In this document: positions 1-5,530 of the stretch, piece by piece
How the letters are laid out: each line of letters opens with the position of its first letter
How positions within the stretch are numbered: the stretch's first letter is position 1
DNA from: Candidatus Altimarinota bacterium
GTDB lineage: Bacteria > Patescibacteriota > Gracilibacteria > UBA1369 > UM-FILTER-53-11
DNA: 32,857 nucleotides
Direction of reading: 5' to 3'
NCBI GenBank assembly: GCA_018061065.1
Contig: JAGOUV010000015.1
Coordinates: 1 to 32,857, forward strand
Made by a program: the position numbers and the translations under genes
Notes under the pieces: model-generated
The model's input: the letters and a program-made list of their open reading frames with translations, nothing else
What the model was told of the DNA's origin: nothing
Databases searched by the model: none

Positions 1-848
1 CCACCACCTATGGAAGCTACATCCTTTAACTTAACGCCAAAGAAAATATCACTGTCACGATATTTATAACCAAGCCATGCGACGAGTGCCAATGAACCGA
101 CAATCATTGTTTTATCCAATCCACTGCCTCCTTGGAGATTTCTGAGCAGTTCTTTCTTCATGTCGCCCAATGTGTGACCCAAAAGCGGTTTATTCTTTTC
201 TTGATTTAGATCTGCATCTGCACGGTTTTCTTTTTCAAAACGTTCATGCAAAATCTGCACCAATGCCTTTACGACTGCATCACTTTGTTCGTATGTATTT
301 TTATGAGTGGGGTCGCTGTCGGGCGTAGCTTGCTTTAAGCCTGCTACAAAGGCGAGACGACCTTTTCCACGGGGGATATAATCTGCACCTGATCCCGCTT
401 GATTTTCAATATCAAAAATCTTTGCCACATCTGTTGGCGGCATGCCTTCCCAGTTCTCAAAATTCGCTGCGCTGTCTGTACCTGCACGAGACATGATGAG
501 CTTTAAGTTTCCTACAAGCTGGTCATAGCGAATCTTATCTTTTGTAAATGTCTCGATATATTCTTTTGCATCACCAGTTTCATCAATATTTTCGCGGAAA
601 TGTTTATCAAGCGCATCAGTTTTTTTTGCAACATCTTCAGTTAAAACTGTTTTTGCAAGATCCTTGCGTTGTGCTTTCAGAGCCTCTTCTTTTTTCTCTG
701 CCTCTATTTTTTGCGCCATTGTTAAGAGCGGTCCGTATTTTGACTTTTCTGTAGGAACGGGCGTCGGCGCAGCAGCAGAACCCTCCGGGGGTTGTCCTCC
801 CGGTGGTGCTCTAAATACAAATCGAGGATAGTTATCACTTATAGCCAT
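1..848 (-). CDS. Uncharacterised protein with predicted membrane segment, partial (3' end beyond left edge)
   Basis: The reading frame is open from the ATG at 848 to the left edge of the window with no stop, so at least 282 residues are coded and the C-terminus is missing. The N-terminus is rich in Pro, Gly and Ala (about residues 12-33). A charged, probably helical stretch rich in Lys/Glu/Ala follows (about 40-90), then a mixed globular-looking part. Near residue 250 there is a hydrophobic segment, TMIVGSLALVAWLGY, that could cross the membrane. I recognise no domain. The start is fixed by an in-frame ATG lying 6 nt after a TATAAT box; an ATG 5 nt further upstream is out of frame and stops at once. 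It is the last visible member of a same-strand run of three unknown genes (4175 to 1) sharing Pro/Gly-rich ends, so a common structure or surface role is possible but unproven. Confidence 0.75.
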   Translation of the reverse strand, partial: MAISDNYPRFVFRAPPGGQPPEGSAAAPTPVPTEKSKYGPLLTMAQKIEAEKKEEALKAQRKDLAKTVLTEDVAKKTDALDKHFRENIDETGDAKEYIETFTKDKIRYDQLVGNLKLIMSRAGTDSAANFENWEGMPPTDVAKIFDIENQAGSGADYIPRGKGRLAFVAGLKQATPDSDPTHKNTYEQSDAVVKALVQILHERFEKENRADADLNQEKNKPLLGHTLGDMKKELLRNLQGGSGLDKTMIVGSLALVAWLGYKYRDSDIFFGVKLKDVASIGG

Positions 849-854
849 CCCATT

Positions 855-883
855 ATTATACCAAATTTCCTACTTTTGATCAA
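855..883 (-). promoter_or_regulatory. Sigma70-type promoter for the partial gene at 848
   Basis: On the minus strand TTGATC (878-883) and TATAAT (855-860) are separated by exactly 17 nt. The -10 is extended (TGGTATAAT). Only 6 nt separate the -10 from the ATG, so transcription is expected to begin at or within a base or two of the start codon, giving a leaderless mRNA. Confidence 0.7.
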
Positions 884-892
884 TGGCCTATC

Positions 893-3661
893 TTAATGGT
901 GGCCTCCGTGACCACCCCCGCCGCCCTTATTGCCCCCTCGTGCTTCAAAGAAATCATCTACAACGCTTCCCACGAGTGCAGCTGCCACATGGCTTCCCAT
1001 TTGTTTCCACCAAGGACCATGTGGTGAAGCATGGTGTGCATGAGCACCCTCTGGTGGTGGGGGAGGTGTTTTTGCCTGTAGGGAATGCTCAACGGCATGC
1101 TGTTCTGCAGCCGTTTTAGGGTACTTATCCAGGTAATGCGCCTGTATATACTCATCTAATTTTTTACACAATAAGACCTCATCATGGTCATCATCTTTTT
1201 TTGTTTCATTGCGAATTTTCTCAATCATTTTTACAATCCAGACTTTTTTCAAGTTTTCAATAAAATGACGCGCCTCAGTAGTATCCTCAACACCGCCCCA
1301 TCCTGTATGGTGGCCATGTTCAATCGTATGGCGGAAGTAAGCGATCATCTGCAAAACGAGCTCCATTTGTAATCCAAAGAGTGCATTCTTTTTTTCAACA
1401 AGATCAGTTTTGCTCTTTACTGACGGATCCTCAGCAAATGCTGCAAGCGCATTATCAATATCAGTGGGAGTTGAATGAAGATTGAGATCTTTAGCAAAAG
1501 GTATATTCCCGAGCAGCAATTGTGGATCTTCACGCGCGGTAAGTGCTCTTCTCCCGACTTCTTTGCCAGCGCTTATACCGATAGCGGTTATTGCTTTTGT
1601 CGTAGCGGATATGCGTCCCCAAAGACCAGTTCCCGTAGGTGCTGGCGGAGGTGGGGGTGGCTCATGTGCGTCATGATGACCAGCAACGGGTTCATTTAAA
1701 TTCATTATAAATAGTGCTGTACATGCTGCAGCTTTCATCATATTTGTATTGTCTTCTGAGACACCAAGATCAGTAAACTCCTGTCGCATGCCAAAATAAA
1801 TTGCTGCGGTTCCGCTTGGTTTAATTCGTTTATCAACGGGAGTTTTTGCTTTATCGTGAACTAATTTAATTGCTTCGAGCGCCTTTGTAATTGGCGCCGC
1901 AAATCTATTGATATTGCCACTGGCTGCGCTTGCTTGTCTCGTCTGTTCTTCATGTACTTTTGCATATATCGCAGCAAGCACATCGCGTAAACTTTCGGTC
2001 TCTTCTTCGAAAACAGTTTCACGTTCTCCTTTTTTCAATTTAATTTCACGCACTACAATCGTGAGCTCATCGCTCAGGGTGTCTTCATCCAGTTTGGTAA
2101 TTTCTTCAATGCTTGTTGTTACTACTGTAGGGAAAGGAGCGGTGACACGAGCCTCTGAGGCAATCTTTTTTAAGCGACGAATACCATTGCCGAAATTTCG
2201 TGCGGCCGCATCAAGCGCCTCCTGTTTTTTTGCAGCAATTCCTAAAGCGGCATCGCCTGTTTTAGGCGCAGTAGCATCTGCAGGTTTTCTTAATTGTCCT
2301 CGAGTGCGTTTTATAACCGTAAGGTCCGCAAGAACATCATCTATGGAGGGAAGTACGGGAGCAGGGGTGAGATTTTTTGATTGGACTTTTAGAGCAATGC
2401 CCATGAGCTCCCCACGGAGTTTAGCTCCATCTAATAGTGCAACTGCTCGTTCGTCAGTGGTATCAATAATAGGAAAATTTCTTAGCTTTGATAATGCTGC
2501 TGCGGACTGTAGCTGTCCAATTTTTGTTCCAAAACTCAGCATGGTTGCCGTAAGACGTTGCTGTAATTCAGCCGGAGTTTCTTGGTGAGTTCCCGTAGTA
2601 GGTGCGGCAGCAGGCGCGGTTACTTGCTTTGCTAACTGCTTCACTTCCATCAAGAAACCAATAATATCATCTACTTTAGGTGGTTCTTCTATGGGAGTCT
2701 GTGCGACTGCTACAACTGTGCGGTCTTTTAATTTTTTATTAGTAATTTCATCTTGTACATCAGTGCGAGCCATACCTAAATCGGTTGCCGCTTTTTCTAC
2801 AGCCTCAATTTTCTCCTTATACGCACTAAAGAGTTCCGCAGTATTTGCAGCATTTCCCGCCGCTGCGCGGCGCATTCCTTTAAAACTATCTAATACCTCA
2901 GACTTACTTGCCAGATGCACCGTCTTTCCTAGGGTGTCTAACGCAACACCTGTTACATCAGCTCCTTTTGTAAATAATTCTTGCACCTCTGTTGGCAGAG
3001 TAGTTACATCTACGCCAAGTCCATCAATAAAAATTCTTTTCAGCCAGGCGATGTAGTCATGAAGTTCAGTTCTTTTTGCCAATCGAGCAGGAACATCACC
3101 CGTCGATGCATTTACGAGTGCTTTAATTTTAGCTAGAAAATCTGCAGCGGTAGGTAGGGTTGCATCGCGTGTTTCAGCGGTGATTTCTTTTCTAATAAAT
3201 CGTGCGGGAAGTACTTTGTTCACGTATTTTGCCGCCGCACGATCTTTTTCATCAATGGTTGCTAATAATAACTCCAATACAGTTTTGTCTGCTGTCACAG
3301 CATCTAAATCCATTGGAGTATGTGCATTATGTTCAAATATATCTGCAAGATGTTGTACGTCCTGCTCGAACAGTGTTCTTAAATACGTCAGTACCCGATA
3401 GTGAGTTGGATTTGCTATAGTATTAATCCTTCCTGTTTTGTCACCGGTTAAAACAAGACGAAGTGTTTCTTTATCGTTATCAGTAAGGTCCTCATCAAAC
3501 CATTTCTGAATCATTAATGGATCAGTTTGAGGTTTATGTATATCGTGACCATGTGTATCTTGGCCATCGACTACCGTATCATTCATTAAATGAGAGAGTA
3601 TTTGTAAACTCGCAAGGTCATGTTTTTGCTCTCCTGGATTTTCACCTGGTCCACCGCTCAT
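893..3661 (-). CDS. Large uncharacterised protein with poly-Pro and His/Gly-rich C-terminus (922 aa)
   Basis: I do not recognise this family. The protein has no signal peptide and no clear membrane helix in its first 600 residues. That part is mostly Lys/Glu/Ala/Leu-rich and looks largely helical. A run of six prolines lies near residue 670 just after a His-rich patch, and a five-proline run near 868 is followed by another His-rich patch. The last residues are GGGGGHGGHH. Two further helical-looking blocks lie between the proline runs. The start ATG at 3661 is 10 nt after the stop of the upstream gene, which suggests co-transcription. No Shine-Dalgarno precedes it. The long plus-strand frames opposite this gene are antisense shadows. 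The His/Gly tail could bind metal, but that is only inferred from composition. Confidence 0.8.
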   Translation of the reverse strand: MSGGPGENPGEQKHDLASLQILSHLMNDTVVDGQDTHGHDIHKPQTDPLMIQKWFDEDLTDNDKETLRLVLTGDKTGRINTIANPTHYRVLTYLRTLFEQDVQHLADIFEHNAHTPMDLDAVTADKTVLELLLATIDEKDRAAAKYVNKVLPARFIRKEITAETRDATLPTAADFLAKIKALVNASTGDVPARLAKRTELHDYIAWLKRIFIDGLGVDVTTLPTEVQELFTKGADVTGVALDTLGKTVHLASKSEVLDSFKGMRRAAAGNAANTAELFSAYKEKIEAVEKAATDLGMARTDVQDEITNKKLKDRTVVAVAQTPIEEPPKVDDIIGFLMEVKQLAKQVTAPAAAPTTGTHQETPAELQQRLTATMLSFGTKIGQLQSAAALSKLRNFPIIDTTDERAVALLDGAKLRGELMGIALKVQSKNLTPAPVLPSIDDVLADLTVIKRTRGQLRKPADATAPKTGDAALGIAAKKQEALDAAARNFGNGIRRLKKIASEARVTAPFPTVVTTSIEEITKLDEDTLSDELTIVVREIKLKKGERETVFEEETESLRDVLAAIYAKVHEEQTRQASAASGNINRFAAPITKALEAIKLVHDKAKTPVDKRIKPSGTAAIYFGMRQEFTDLGVSEDNTNMMKAAACTALFIMNLNEPVAGHHDAHEPPPPPPAPTGTGLWGRISATTKAITAIGISAGKEVGRRALTAREDPQLLLGNIPFAKDLNLHSTPTDIDNALAAFAEDPSVKSKTDLVEKKNALFGLQMELVLQMIAYFRHTIEHGHHTGWGGVEDTTEARHFIENLKKVWIVKMIEKIRNETKKDDDHDEVLLCKKLDEYIQAHYLDKYPKTAAEQHAVEHSLQAKTPPPPPEGAHAHHASPHGPWWKQMGSHVAAALVGSVVDDFFEARGGNKGGGGGHGGHH

Positions 3662-3671
3662 AAATAATTTA

Positions 3672-4175
3672 TTAGTCTTTTATATTTGGGCCACGATGAA
3701 ATACCTGATTAATAGGTACAACCACTGCGCCTACTTTAATACCGACTCTCACTGAATTAGATGAGTCGTCATATTCCATAACTTTTAGCTGTGAATTGTC
3801 ACTTACATAGGCATCCCCATGAGCATCTACTTCAATGGTAAATCGTGTTCCTGAGGGAAGATCGGCATAATGTCCTTCGGTACTACTTGGGTTATGTGGG
3901 GCAGTGTTTCCAGAAGGTCTAATATCAATATCGTCTGATGCATCGTGCTTAGTCCAATCCATTACTTTTCCGATTGCTGCAGCTACGGGTAGAGCTACTG
4001 CAAGTCCAATAACTGCAGATTTTTTTGGATTATTTCTTACCCATCCAGGGCCTTTCTTAGGTCCAGTAGGTGCGCCGCCGCCGTGTCCACCAGCTGCTCC
4101 GGTCGGTGCCGCTGTAGGTGCGGGTCTCTTATATCGTCCTCCTCCTGGTGTGGGTGATGGTGAGCCGGGTGCCAT
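3672..4175 (-). CDS. Small single-pass membrane protein with Pro/Gly-rich N-terminus, unknown function (167 aa)
   Basis: The N-terminal 45 residues are low-complexity Pro/Gly/Ala with Lys/Arg. One hydrophobic segment follows at about 53-69 (SAVIGLAVALPVAAAIGK). A C-terminal domain of about 90 residues, rich in Asp, Ser and Val, may be a small beta fold. With positive charges before the helix, the N-terminus is expected inside and the C-terminal domain outside; this is inference. The gene is the first of three consecutive minus-strand unknown genes, divergent from tig. AT-rich TATAAT-like boxes occur in the 80 nt upstream, but none has a convincing -35. I know no family for it. Confidence 0.75.
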   Translation of the reverse strand: MAPGSPSPTPGGGRYKRPAPTAAPTGAAGGHGGGAPTGPKKGPGWVRNNPKKSAVIGLAVALPVAAAIGKVMDWTKHDASDDIDIRPSGNTAPHNPSSTEGHYADLPSGTRFTIEVDAHGDAYVSDNSQLKVMEYDDSSNSVRVGIKVGAVVVPINQVFHRGPNIKD

Positions 4176-4217
4176 ATATACACAATTAAATTATATCTGA
4201 TAATTATACCTCATATA

Positions 4218-4235
4218 CCCTGGTCATGTACAGGG
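4218..4235. repeat. Short inverted repeat CCCTG-N8-CAGGG in the tig promoter region
   Basis: CCCTG (4218-4222) and CAGGG (4231-4235) are perfect inverted arms separated by 8 nt. The element covers the proposed -35 of tig, so it could be an operator. A chance occurrence is equally possible. Confidence 0.35.
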
Positions 4236-4249
4236 CTTTGTGTTACTGT
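4221..4249 (+). promoter_or_regulatory. Candidate tig promoter (extended -10)
   Basis: TGGTCA (4221-4226, four of six matches to the -35 consensus) and TACTGT (4244-4249) are 17 nt apart. The -10 carries an upstream TG (TGTTACTGT). Six nt separate it from the ATG at 4256, predicting a leaderless tig mRNA. Confidence 0.45.
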
Positions 4250-4255
4250 GCGCGC

Positions 4256-5530
4256 ATGAAAATCGATGTAAAAAAACTCCCAAAGTCAGAAGTTCAGCTT
4301 ACCGTAGCCGTTTCAGAAGAAGAAATGGCCAAATATGAAGAACAGGCAACCAAGCGTATTTCAGAGCAGGTTGAGGTTCCTGGTTTCCGCAAAGGCACGG
4401 CTCCTAAGTATTTGGTGCTCGCGCGTGTCGGTAAGGAGATGTTTGAGGAAGAAGTTGTTCGCTTAGCCCTTCCACAGACCTACGCAAAAGCAGTCGTAGA
4501 CAACAAAATCGAGGCAATTGGTTCTCCACGGGTGACGGTAAAGAAACAGACACCACTTGAATACGAAGCAATTATTCCTACTTTTCCTGACATTACGATT
4601 AAGGATTTGGACAAGCTCGTAATTCCGGAAGAAAAGCTCGAGGTTTCTGAAAAAGAGATGAATGATGTGGTAGATGAGATGCGTCGTTACCATGCTACAT
4701 ATAAAGACTTGGATCGTGCAGTGGTAAAAGGCGATCGTATGGAAATTGATTTCCAGGGTTACGATGAAGGTGGTGCCGCTTTAGACAAAACGAACTCAAA
4801 AAATCACCCGCTTGTTTTGGGTGAGGGGAGTTTGATTCCTGGTTTTGAAGAACACCTTATGGGTATGAAAGTAGGGGAGAAAAAGCGCTTTCCTATTACC
4901 TTTCCTAAGGATTACCACTACGAGCCATTCAAGAGTAAAAAAGTCGAGTTTGAGGTAAAAGTAGTGAAAGCTCAAGAGCCTCAGCTTCCTGAATTATCTG
5001 AAGAATTTATTGAAAAAATTGTAGGTAGCAAGAAGTCAGTTGAAGAGTTTAAGACGTTGGTAAAAGAAGATGTAACTGCACGCAAGAGTCAGGAGGTACA
5101 CACCAAACGTGAGAATAAACTTTTTGAGGAGCTTATTGAGCGTTCTACATTAGAAGTGCCTCCATCACTCATTGATGAAGAAATCGACGTTATGATGGAA
5201 GAGCTCAAGCAGCGTGTTGAATCATCAGGCGGCAATTTTGATGGCTTTGTTGAGGAGATGAAGAAGCAGAAAAAAGATCCACGCAAGGATTACGAGCAAG
5301 AGGCTCAAAAGCGCGTAAAGATCCGTCTCATTCTCAATCATCTTTTCAAAACGCTCCCTATCGAAGTCTCAGATGACGATATGAAGGCAGCTTATGAAGA
5401 GCTTACAAAGACGGCTGATGGTGACCGCAAAAAGGCGATTGAACAGCAGTTTAAAGAGCAGCGTGGCATCTACGCCCGTGTTAAAAATAACATGATGCTC
5501 GACAAATTGTTGAAGAAATACCTTGGCTAA
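4256..5530 (+). CDS. tig: Trigger factor, ribosome-associated chaperone and peptidyl-prolyl isomerase
   Basis: Trigger factor docks at the ribosomal exit tunnel and shields nascent chains. The N-terminal domain carries the ribosome-binding signature GFRKG at residues 43-47. An FKBP-type isomerase domain follows at about 160-245, containing VLGEGSLIPGFEEHLMGM and the usual GEKKRF and YHYEPF segments. The C-terminal part is helical, as in the chaperone arms. The length of 424 residues is normal for the family. I chose the ATG at 4256 rather than the in-frame ATG at 4226, because MKIDVKK matches a family N-terminus and 4226 lies within the proposed promoter. The small membrane gene begins 28 nt after the stop. 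In many bacteria tig precedes clpP/clpX; that is not the case here, and clpC lies 20 kb away on the other strand. Confidence 0.96.
   Translation: MKIDVKKLPKSEVQLTVAVSEEEMAKYEEQATKRISEQVEVPGFRKGTAPKYLVLARVGKEMFEEEVVRLALPQTYAKAVVDNKIEAIGSPRVTVKKQTPLEYEAIIPTFPDITIKDLDKLVIPEEKLEVSEKEMNDVVDEMRRYHATYKDLDRAVVKGDRMEIDFQGYDEGGAALDKTNSKNHPLVLGEGSLIPGFEEHLMGMKVGEKKRFPITFPKDYHYEPFKSKKVEFEVKVVKAQEPQLPELSEEFIEKIVGSKKSVEEFKTLVKEDVTARKSQEVHTKRENKLFEELIERSTLEVPPSLIDEEIDVMMEELKQRVESSGGNFDGFVEEMKKQKKDPRKDYEQEAQKRVKIRLILNHLFKTLPIEVSDDDMKAAYEELTKTADGDRKKAIEQQFKEQRGIYARVKNNMMLDKLLKKYLG

Follow-up and report, generated by a model that had tools for sequence, protein, structure and literature searches.

Three consecutive minus-strand genes, C, B, and A, lie divergent from tig, the trigger factor gene, at the start of the window (the whole stretch of 32,857 nucleotides analyzed here, from Candidatus Altimarinota bacterium), and they belong to a gene set that is conserved beside tig. 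Read from tig, its order here is C-B-A-E-protease; in other families it is B-D-A, and the protease is often present as well. C, B, and A may make up the upstream half of an envelope assembly particular to the Peregrinibacteria-type lineage of Patescibacteria, a group of tiny uncultured bacteria, in which B would be the rapidly diversifying, contact-facing component. We advance this reading tentatively, giving it somewhat less than an even chance, and we infer its function from the comparisons described below.

The gene run beside tig and its conservation

Gene C (positions 3672–4175, minus strand), the first in the order of transcription C-B-A, encodes 167 amino acid residues with a Pro/Gly/Ala-rich N-terminus, one hydrophobic segment, and a short C-terminal domain. 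Gene B (893–3661, minus strand) follows after a gap of 10 nt and encodes 922 residues, probably helical over most of their length, with poly-Pro runs and a Gly/His-rich C-terminal tail ending in GGNKGGGGGHGGHH. After another 44 nt comes gene A (3–848, minus strand), whose first 282 residues are present and whose reading frame is open at the left edge; an N-terminal RFVF and a stretch rich in Pro, Gly, and Ala precede the first segment of a hydrophobic hairpin. The divergent neighbor tig (4226–5530, plus strand; Pfam Trigger_N, 2.3e-30, and Trigger_C, 3.9e-29) served as the anchor of the locus, and its start is likely MKIDVKKLP, as read from the sequence 30 nt inside the ORF. By the ORF coordinates, positions 4176–4225 separate C and tig, and both putative promoters presumably lie in this region. 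The coordinates confirmed the original prediction of three minus-strand genes divergent from tig with spacings of 10 and 44 nt. The low-complexity ends of A, B, and C were as it had described, and the single membrane helix assigned to C corresponds to the one hydrophobic segment. The source genome (1.30 Mb, 28 contigs, 98.5% complete) contains the window as the start of contig C14 (G000:C14:1). Because window position 1 is a contig end, gene A is an artificial fragment cut by the assembly.

The order was represented by 59 genomes; 55 yielded tig and 41 yielded A (two A profiles matched 23 and 22 genomes, 4 of them shared; one of the 41, G058, is doubtful, as the C-terminal part alone matched the A profile). 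In 30 of the 41, A and tig share a contig and lie on opposite strands, no more than 10 kb apart. A was on another contig in seven (G002, G005, G013, G016, G047, G054, and G058), with the pieces of A and of tig both at contig ends in G002 and G005, and tig was not found in the remaining four A-bearing genomes (G025, G027, G038, and G051). Four other genera of the family have proteins that window A itself matched (E 1.4e-15 to 8.7e-30), and two of these proteins are encoded on the contig that carries tig. The linkage in 30 of 41 genomes, together with genes E and P found in relatives, bears out the suggestion that a set conserved next to tig has further members past the left edge. The suggestion of a conserved trio was borne out in part: the gene set is kept at tig, but among the families examined, none except the window's own showed strict C-B-A order, the others having mostly B-D-A, often with a protease.

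The tig side was also fetched for 15 of the 18 genomes in which A was not found, plus G058; 13 of these 16 had a divergent run that includes an ORF of 541 residues or more, and five of the 13 runs had a D match. Hairpin-profile matches (1.5e-5 and 3.1e-5) were present in the divergent run at tig in two genomes with no A-profile match, G008 and G046, and two of the large ORFs on the tig strand in G053 gave such matches as well (1.7e-7 and 3.4e-6). No divergent run was present on the fetched tig side of G020 and G048. G044, which was fetched separately, likewise had a divergent run at tig, and G015 and G055 were left out. In G044, 345- and 958-residue ORFs beside tig (L072:2241-6167) share one frame, with the stop between them falling at a hairpin-like stretch; the interruption may be an error, a split gene, or a genuine stop.

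Of 192 genomes sampled across the class, 17 were matched by the A3 profile, and 14 of these belong to the window's order; the stretches fetched around the three matching genomes from other orders contained no tig. One protein from another order (L183:6883-10785 in G085; 1300 residues) matched the A3 profile with E 5.3e-19 and did not match two further A models. At the locus L185, an A-like ORF immediately follows an ORF ending in SSSGHH.

Family A, its hairpin, and the neighboring genes

By its homologous N-terminal region and hairpin, window A is assigned to the tig-linked family A. Complete relatives are mostly 537–1448 residues long, the exception being L115, where two pieces measure just 477 and 419 residues. 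Hydrophobicity across the family is highest in the hairpin, a pair of segments about 10–16 residues apart with averaged hydropathy peaks of 1.58 and 1.03, and a TGK-type motif follows it in most rows of the alignment. Of the 35 aligned rows, 32 have both segments; the remaining three are window A, which is truncated and contains only the first, and two fragments. The single membrane helix originally assigned to A therefore has to be revised to a hairpin, cut after its first segment in the window. The predicted membrane location is supported, at the level of sequence, by the conserved hairpin of A and the hydrophobic segment of C. In profile-profile comparisons, the window's family A matched the G043/G052 type with E 1.3e-31 over 666 columns and the L076 type with E 2.4e-7 over 167 columns, and several pairs of A subgroups showed no direct match to each other.

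The AlphaFold2 model of the A protein of G003 (1036 residues, 31 rows; mean pLDDT 75.7, pTM 0.51) consists of a helical N-terminus, a low-confidence hairpin, a helical block, a beta-rich region at about residues 538–752, and a helical C-terminus. Foldseek against PDB gave nothing at E <= 0.001 for this model (best, 0.047), a search in which the whole 1036-residue model may miss single domains, and the best VIA match was to a designed helical repeat (Z 7.4). The 31 A-family members compared with Pfam at E 0.01 matched only DUF4010 and CaMKII_AD, with one member each.

Large helical proteins would also suit a phage-derived module, in which tape-measure-like proteins accompany lysins, and the best BFVD match of the A model was an SLT-domain viral protein. 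This match, the only one below 0.001 (E 2.8e-4), had a probability of 0.44 and a TM score of 0.08, and it was rejected as a fold for A because it is generic. The window proteins matched PHROG with E 0.044 at best, to a family whose function is unknown, and the seven scanned proteins did no better than E 0.014; phage records yielded no match to window B or to the A protein of G003. With its position beside tig conserved as well, we find a phage origin of the module scarcely credible.

The other genomes of the window's family carry C, B, A, E (295–384 residues), and P in this order, with contig breaks concealing parts of it in G002, G004, and G005; the contig of G004 stops about 1.5 kb beyond E, and that stretch contains no zincin. 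The name P stands for a protein that combines a hydrophobic N-terminus with the invariant pattern HExGH...FEDFAE. H151, E152, H155, and the FEDFAE residues were invariant in all 13 aligned rows, and by this signature (HExxH in the sequence, together with another acidic ligand) P is a putative zinc metallopeptidase of the zincin type, probably exported. The window's genome has a single P, on the minus strand near the end of the 224,732-base contig C18 (C18:223613-224488, listed also as L075:8602-9588 at the G000:C18 end), with its upstream side facing the contig end. This orientation is expected if the right end of C18 joins the left end of C14 over a gap containing the rest of A and E, and C18 is probably the contig whose end matches the window edge. 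This protein, which lies outside the window trio, resembles Peptidase_Mx (PF15887; E 4.7e-6) and Mx1 (PF15890; E 3e-5), with weaker matches to M48 and ATLF; its Peptidase_Mx score of 26.7 bits is slightly under the gathering score of 27.0.

A search with the P family gave 115 matching stretches in Peregrini-, Peri-, and Gracilibacteria-type records, of which 79 loci were kept. A was recognized at 31 of the 79, and P was on the same strand after A in all 31, where small ORFs may intervene and where the loci had been fetched by P itself. The other 48 had no recognized A, some being short contigs. Since P occurs outside the cluster too, its tie to A may be positional only.

A layout like that of C was seen at the C position in G001 (237 residues), G003 (219 residues, with the hydrophobic segment judged by eye only), G004 (208 residues), and G005 (280 residues). 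In sequence, window C matched G001 only, over 24 residues (E 8e-4; hhalign E 1.2e-4), and neither window B nor window C was joined to the same-position proteins of other families beyond weak local matches. In other families, the protein D of 103–146 residues is encoded between B and A, upstream of A. Across the 59 genomes, 29 gave a D match at E up to 0.01, in some cases weak and distant from the cluster; the six genomes of the window's family gave none. DUF5663 (PF18908) matched one of 18 D members (E 0.0041); the other 17 had no match to it at E 0.01.

Constant and variable parts of the B-position proteins

Most other genomes carry large proteins at the B position. Window B lies between tig and A, as these proteins do, and has a His/Gly-rich tail. 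Defined as at least three His in the last 25 residues, a His-rich tail was found in 10 of 44 B-position ORFs, a set that also counts fragments and C genes; the figures were 2 of 124 for the remaining ORFs of the cluster and 36 of 1027 for those outside it. The difference between the B position and the outside ORFs gave a Fisher p of 7e-6, with related genomes not being independent. Window B had no homologue in the 58 other genomes of the 59, in phage records, or among PDB sequences, and when peptide patterns were searched in GTDB r220, seven stretches fitted a pattern and none was confirmed. A C-terminal domain of about 300 residues is common to the B-position proteins of the families f2, f8, and f14 and weaker in those of f6, f3, and f13; window B compared with it gave a whole-sequence E of 0.89 and a best domain i-E of 18. 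Short N-terminal matches of window B to G003 and G001 (E about 0.007–0.08) and a NIP-x-x-K-x-L stretch found in both window B and the G003 B protein are at most suggestive of a relationship. Position, these weak N-terminal matches, and the Gly/His tail would loosely tie window B to the B-position proteins of its relatives. Aligned by hhalign to other families, window B and C gave matches of 36–50 residues whose best E values were 1e-4 to 7e-3; the match of window B shifted to the Gly/His tail without realignment and was therefore not counted.

Divergence along B was measured in blocks of alignment columns in three species pairs of other families (L076/L077, G043/G052, and G019/G030), so that the pattern comes from relatives, window B having no close relative. 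The B-position ORFs compared were L076:3301-6318 and L077:378-3551, L142:4249-6780 and L061:1809-4439, and L170:9169-13554 and L173:9877-13635. The same pattern was obtained in all three pairs: the N-terminal or middle part was 21–64% identical and most of the rest 57–100%, whereas D, A, and, where measured, tig were 84–99% identical. In L076/L077, identity was 86% over columns 1–100, 36–64% with gaps over columns 101–600, 83% over columns 601–700, and 98–100% over the last 370, while D was identical at 116 of 117 residues and A at 94%. In G043/G052, columns 201–500 were 21–37% identical against 57–78% elsewhere, with 97% for tig, 95% for D, and 84% each for A and P. In G019/G030, the first 1000 columns showed 21–42% and the next 500 showed 71–95%, with tig at 95%, D at 94%, and A at 87%.

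In L076/L077, dS exceeded 1.4 or was saturated in columns 101–600 and was 0.02–0.5 in the last 370. Given such a high dS, recombination between diverged alleles or the long retention of old ones explains the variable segment no less well than positive selection in the recent past, of which the pattern is not proof. Targets of diversity-generating retroelements are usually short, and the long, gapped variable region of B looks different. The combination of a conserved end, a fast-diverging segment, and conserved neighbors in the relatives resembles the constant/variable surface proteins, a general bacterial kind, from which B differs in having no visible signal peptide and no known family. A variable part of this kind suggests contact with a co-evolving thing, such as a host cell, a rival, or a phage. 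No signal peptide was visible in B by eye, which leaves exposure of B unexplained and is the main difficulty for the envelope-contact reading.

Divergence with no outside contact at all is what an internal structural or division scaffold would provide, that is, a structure beneath the membrane, polar or resembling a cytoskeleton, with relaxed constraint on coiled coils and linkers. B without a visible export signal would be at home in such a structure. Helices make up nearly all of the L076-type B model (12 rows; pLDDT 60.6), including a long helical hairpin, and much of the A model; no enzyme family was found in A to C, and most of the genomes examined keep the set at a single site. Uniform relaxed constraint, however, predicts neither a variable part that gives way to C-terminal ends up to 98–100% identical nor the drop in dS, and a putative secreted protease adjoins A. 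We consider an internal scaffold rather unlikely on balance. The L076-type B model had best matches in PDB of E 0.14 by Foldseek and Z 10.6 by VIA, the latter to coiled-coil regions, and coiled-coil structures were rejected as a lead for B because they are generic.

A hypervariable protein between conserved neighbors could also be the polymorphic recognition component of an anti-phage or other conflict system. In PADLOC, the window proteins A, B, and C and the A proteins of G003 and G043 had no match at E 0.1, and D and one relative of B had weak, partial matches (E 0.0008–0.016). The set occupies one chromosomal site across much of an order and differs in this from mobile defence loci; we regard a defence role for B as very improbable.

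Known families, the N-terminal motif, and a model of the cluster

None of A, B, and C scored above the curated thresholds of Pfam or NCBIfam, in agreement with the original prediction of a trio with no nameable family, and fold searches with the models of the G003 A protein and the L076-type B gave no usable match. PDB sequences gave no match for B and best E values of 0.048 for the A profile and 0.037 for C. No known family, fold, or described system was thus matched to the cluster, which is not in itself proof of a new mechanism. The FESNov catalogue reports undescribed, clade-restricted families and a high share of membrane and signal-peptide proteins among the novel families of Patescibacteria (Nature 2023, PMC10849945). 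The cluster proteins resemble these in being lineage-specific families with no known function, and the accessible part of that article does not describe the tig-side cluster; such catalogues may list some of its proteins without describing the system. A literature search, with subscription papers and preprints mostly outside its range, found no paper joining Peregrinibacteria or Gracilibacteria with trigger factor and, judged by titles and the opening lines of abstracts, none on the cluster.

Several cluster proteins, window A included, begin with a basic/aromatic motif (RFVF, RLVW, RFIF, and the like) followed by a Pro/Gly/Ala-rich stretch. Trigger factor prefers to bind basic and aromatic stretches, and if cluster proteins were among its clients, this might give a reason for their location at tig. 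A regular expression for the motif, picked on these same data, matched 16 of 126 cluster ORFs and 4 of 875 others; two of the 16 duplicate another contig (L070/L087), and two of the four adjoin tig in G044. On held-out loci fetched afterwards, it matched 2 of 37 and 0 of 48 ORFs, respectively, with both matches from one genus, and the difference was not significant (p 0.19). Looser look-alikes were visible among the held-out loci, and the L183 match to the A3 profile carries ARLVFENGSP at its N-terminus, by eye the same motif. As the expression was post hoc and the held-out test non-significant, the motif was dropped as a proven signal and kept as a lead only.

A second low-complexity cluster of five genes lies on the minus strand beside ligA, identified by its DNA ligase domains, in the same genome (G000:C18:31371-35990, L156:11371-15990). 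It encodes a 129-residue protein, an SLT transglycosylase with an unusual N-terminus (SLT_4, E 3e-11), and proteins of 302, 491, and 169 residues, of which the 302-residue protein begins with RFVW and a Pro/Ala-rich stretch, that is, with the motif. The first three of these genes, among them those for the 129-residue and SLT proteins, had counterparts beside ligase-like ORFs in G001 and G002, with the SLT domain detected in G001.

The motif bears on a further explanation, in which the set is a machine for protein export or cell contact, A being a channel, B a substrate or needle-like part, and RFVF/RLVW an export or docking tag common to the SLT cluster. The counts in the first set of ORFs and the motif in the ligA-side protein and the L183 protein are what such a tag would produce, but the expression was chosen on the data and its excess in the held-out loci was not significant. 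No ATPase and no known secretion gene could be recognized in the cluster proteins that were scanned, and none of the fold matches was to a channel; an export machine appears distinctly unlikely to us. A broader proposal, which we hold to be a long shot, is a lineage-wide cell-contact machine of Peregrinibacteria, in which A would be a new hairpin scaffold and B a polymorphic tip with a recombination-swapped domain, and the RFVF-type tag would route its parts and the lytic-transglycosylase cluster to the same envelope site.

The reading that we prefer remains an envelope assembly with B as its contact-facing component. We infer that the proteins may act as one complex exposed at the cell surface, with the following topology and roles. 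A would be inserted into the membrane by its hydrophobic hairpin as the conserved scaffold, and C would be a single-pass partner. B would be held through its C-terminal part and tail, so that the N-terminal or middle part forms the exposed, rapidly diversifying face. P, as a zincin-type and probably exported protease, might mature or shed parts of the assembly or act on a partner.

Fast evolution often marks proteins that touch other organisms, and the largest cluster protein of the relatives evolves unusually fast. For most Patescibacteria, the way of interacting with other cells is unknown. A set of genes kept beside tig, one member of which outpaces its neighbors, points to a possible part of the cell under outside pressure and yields named genes with which this can be tested.
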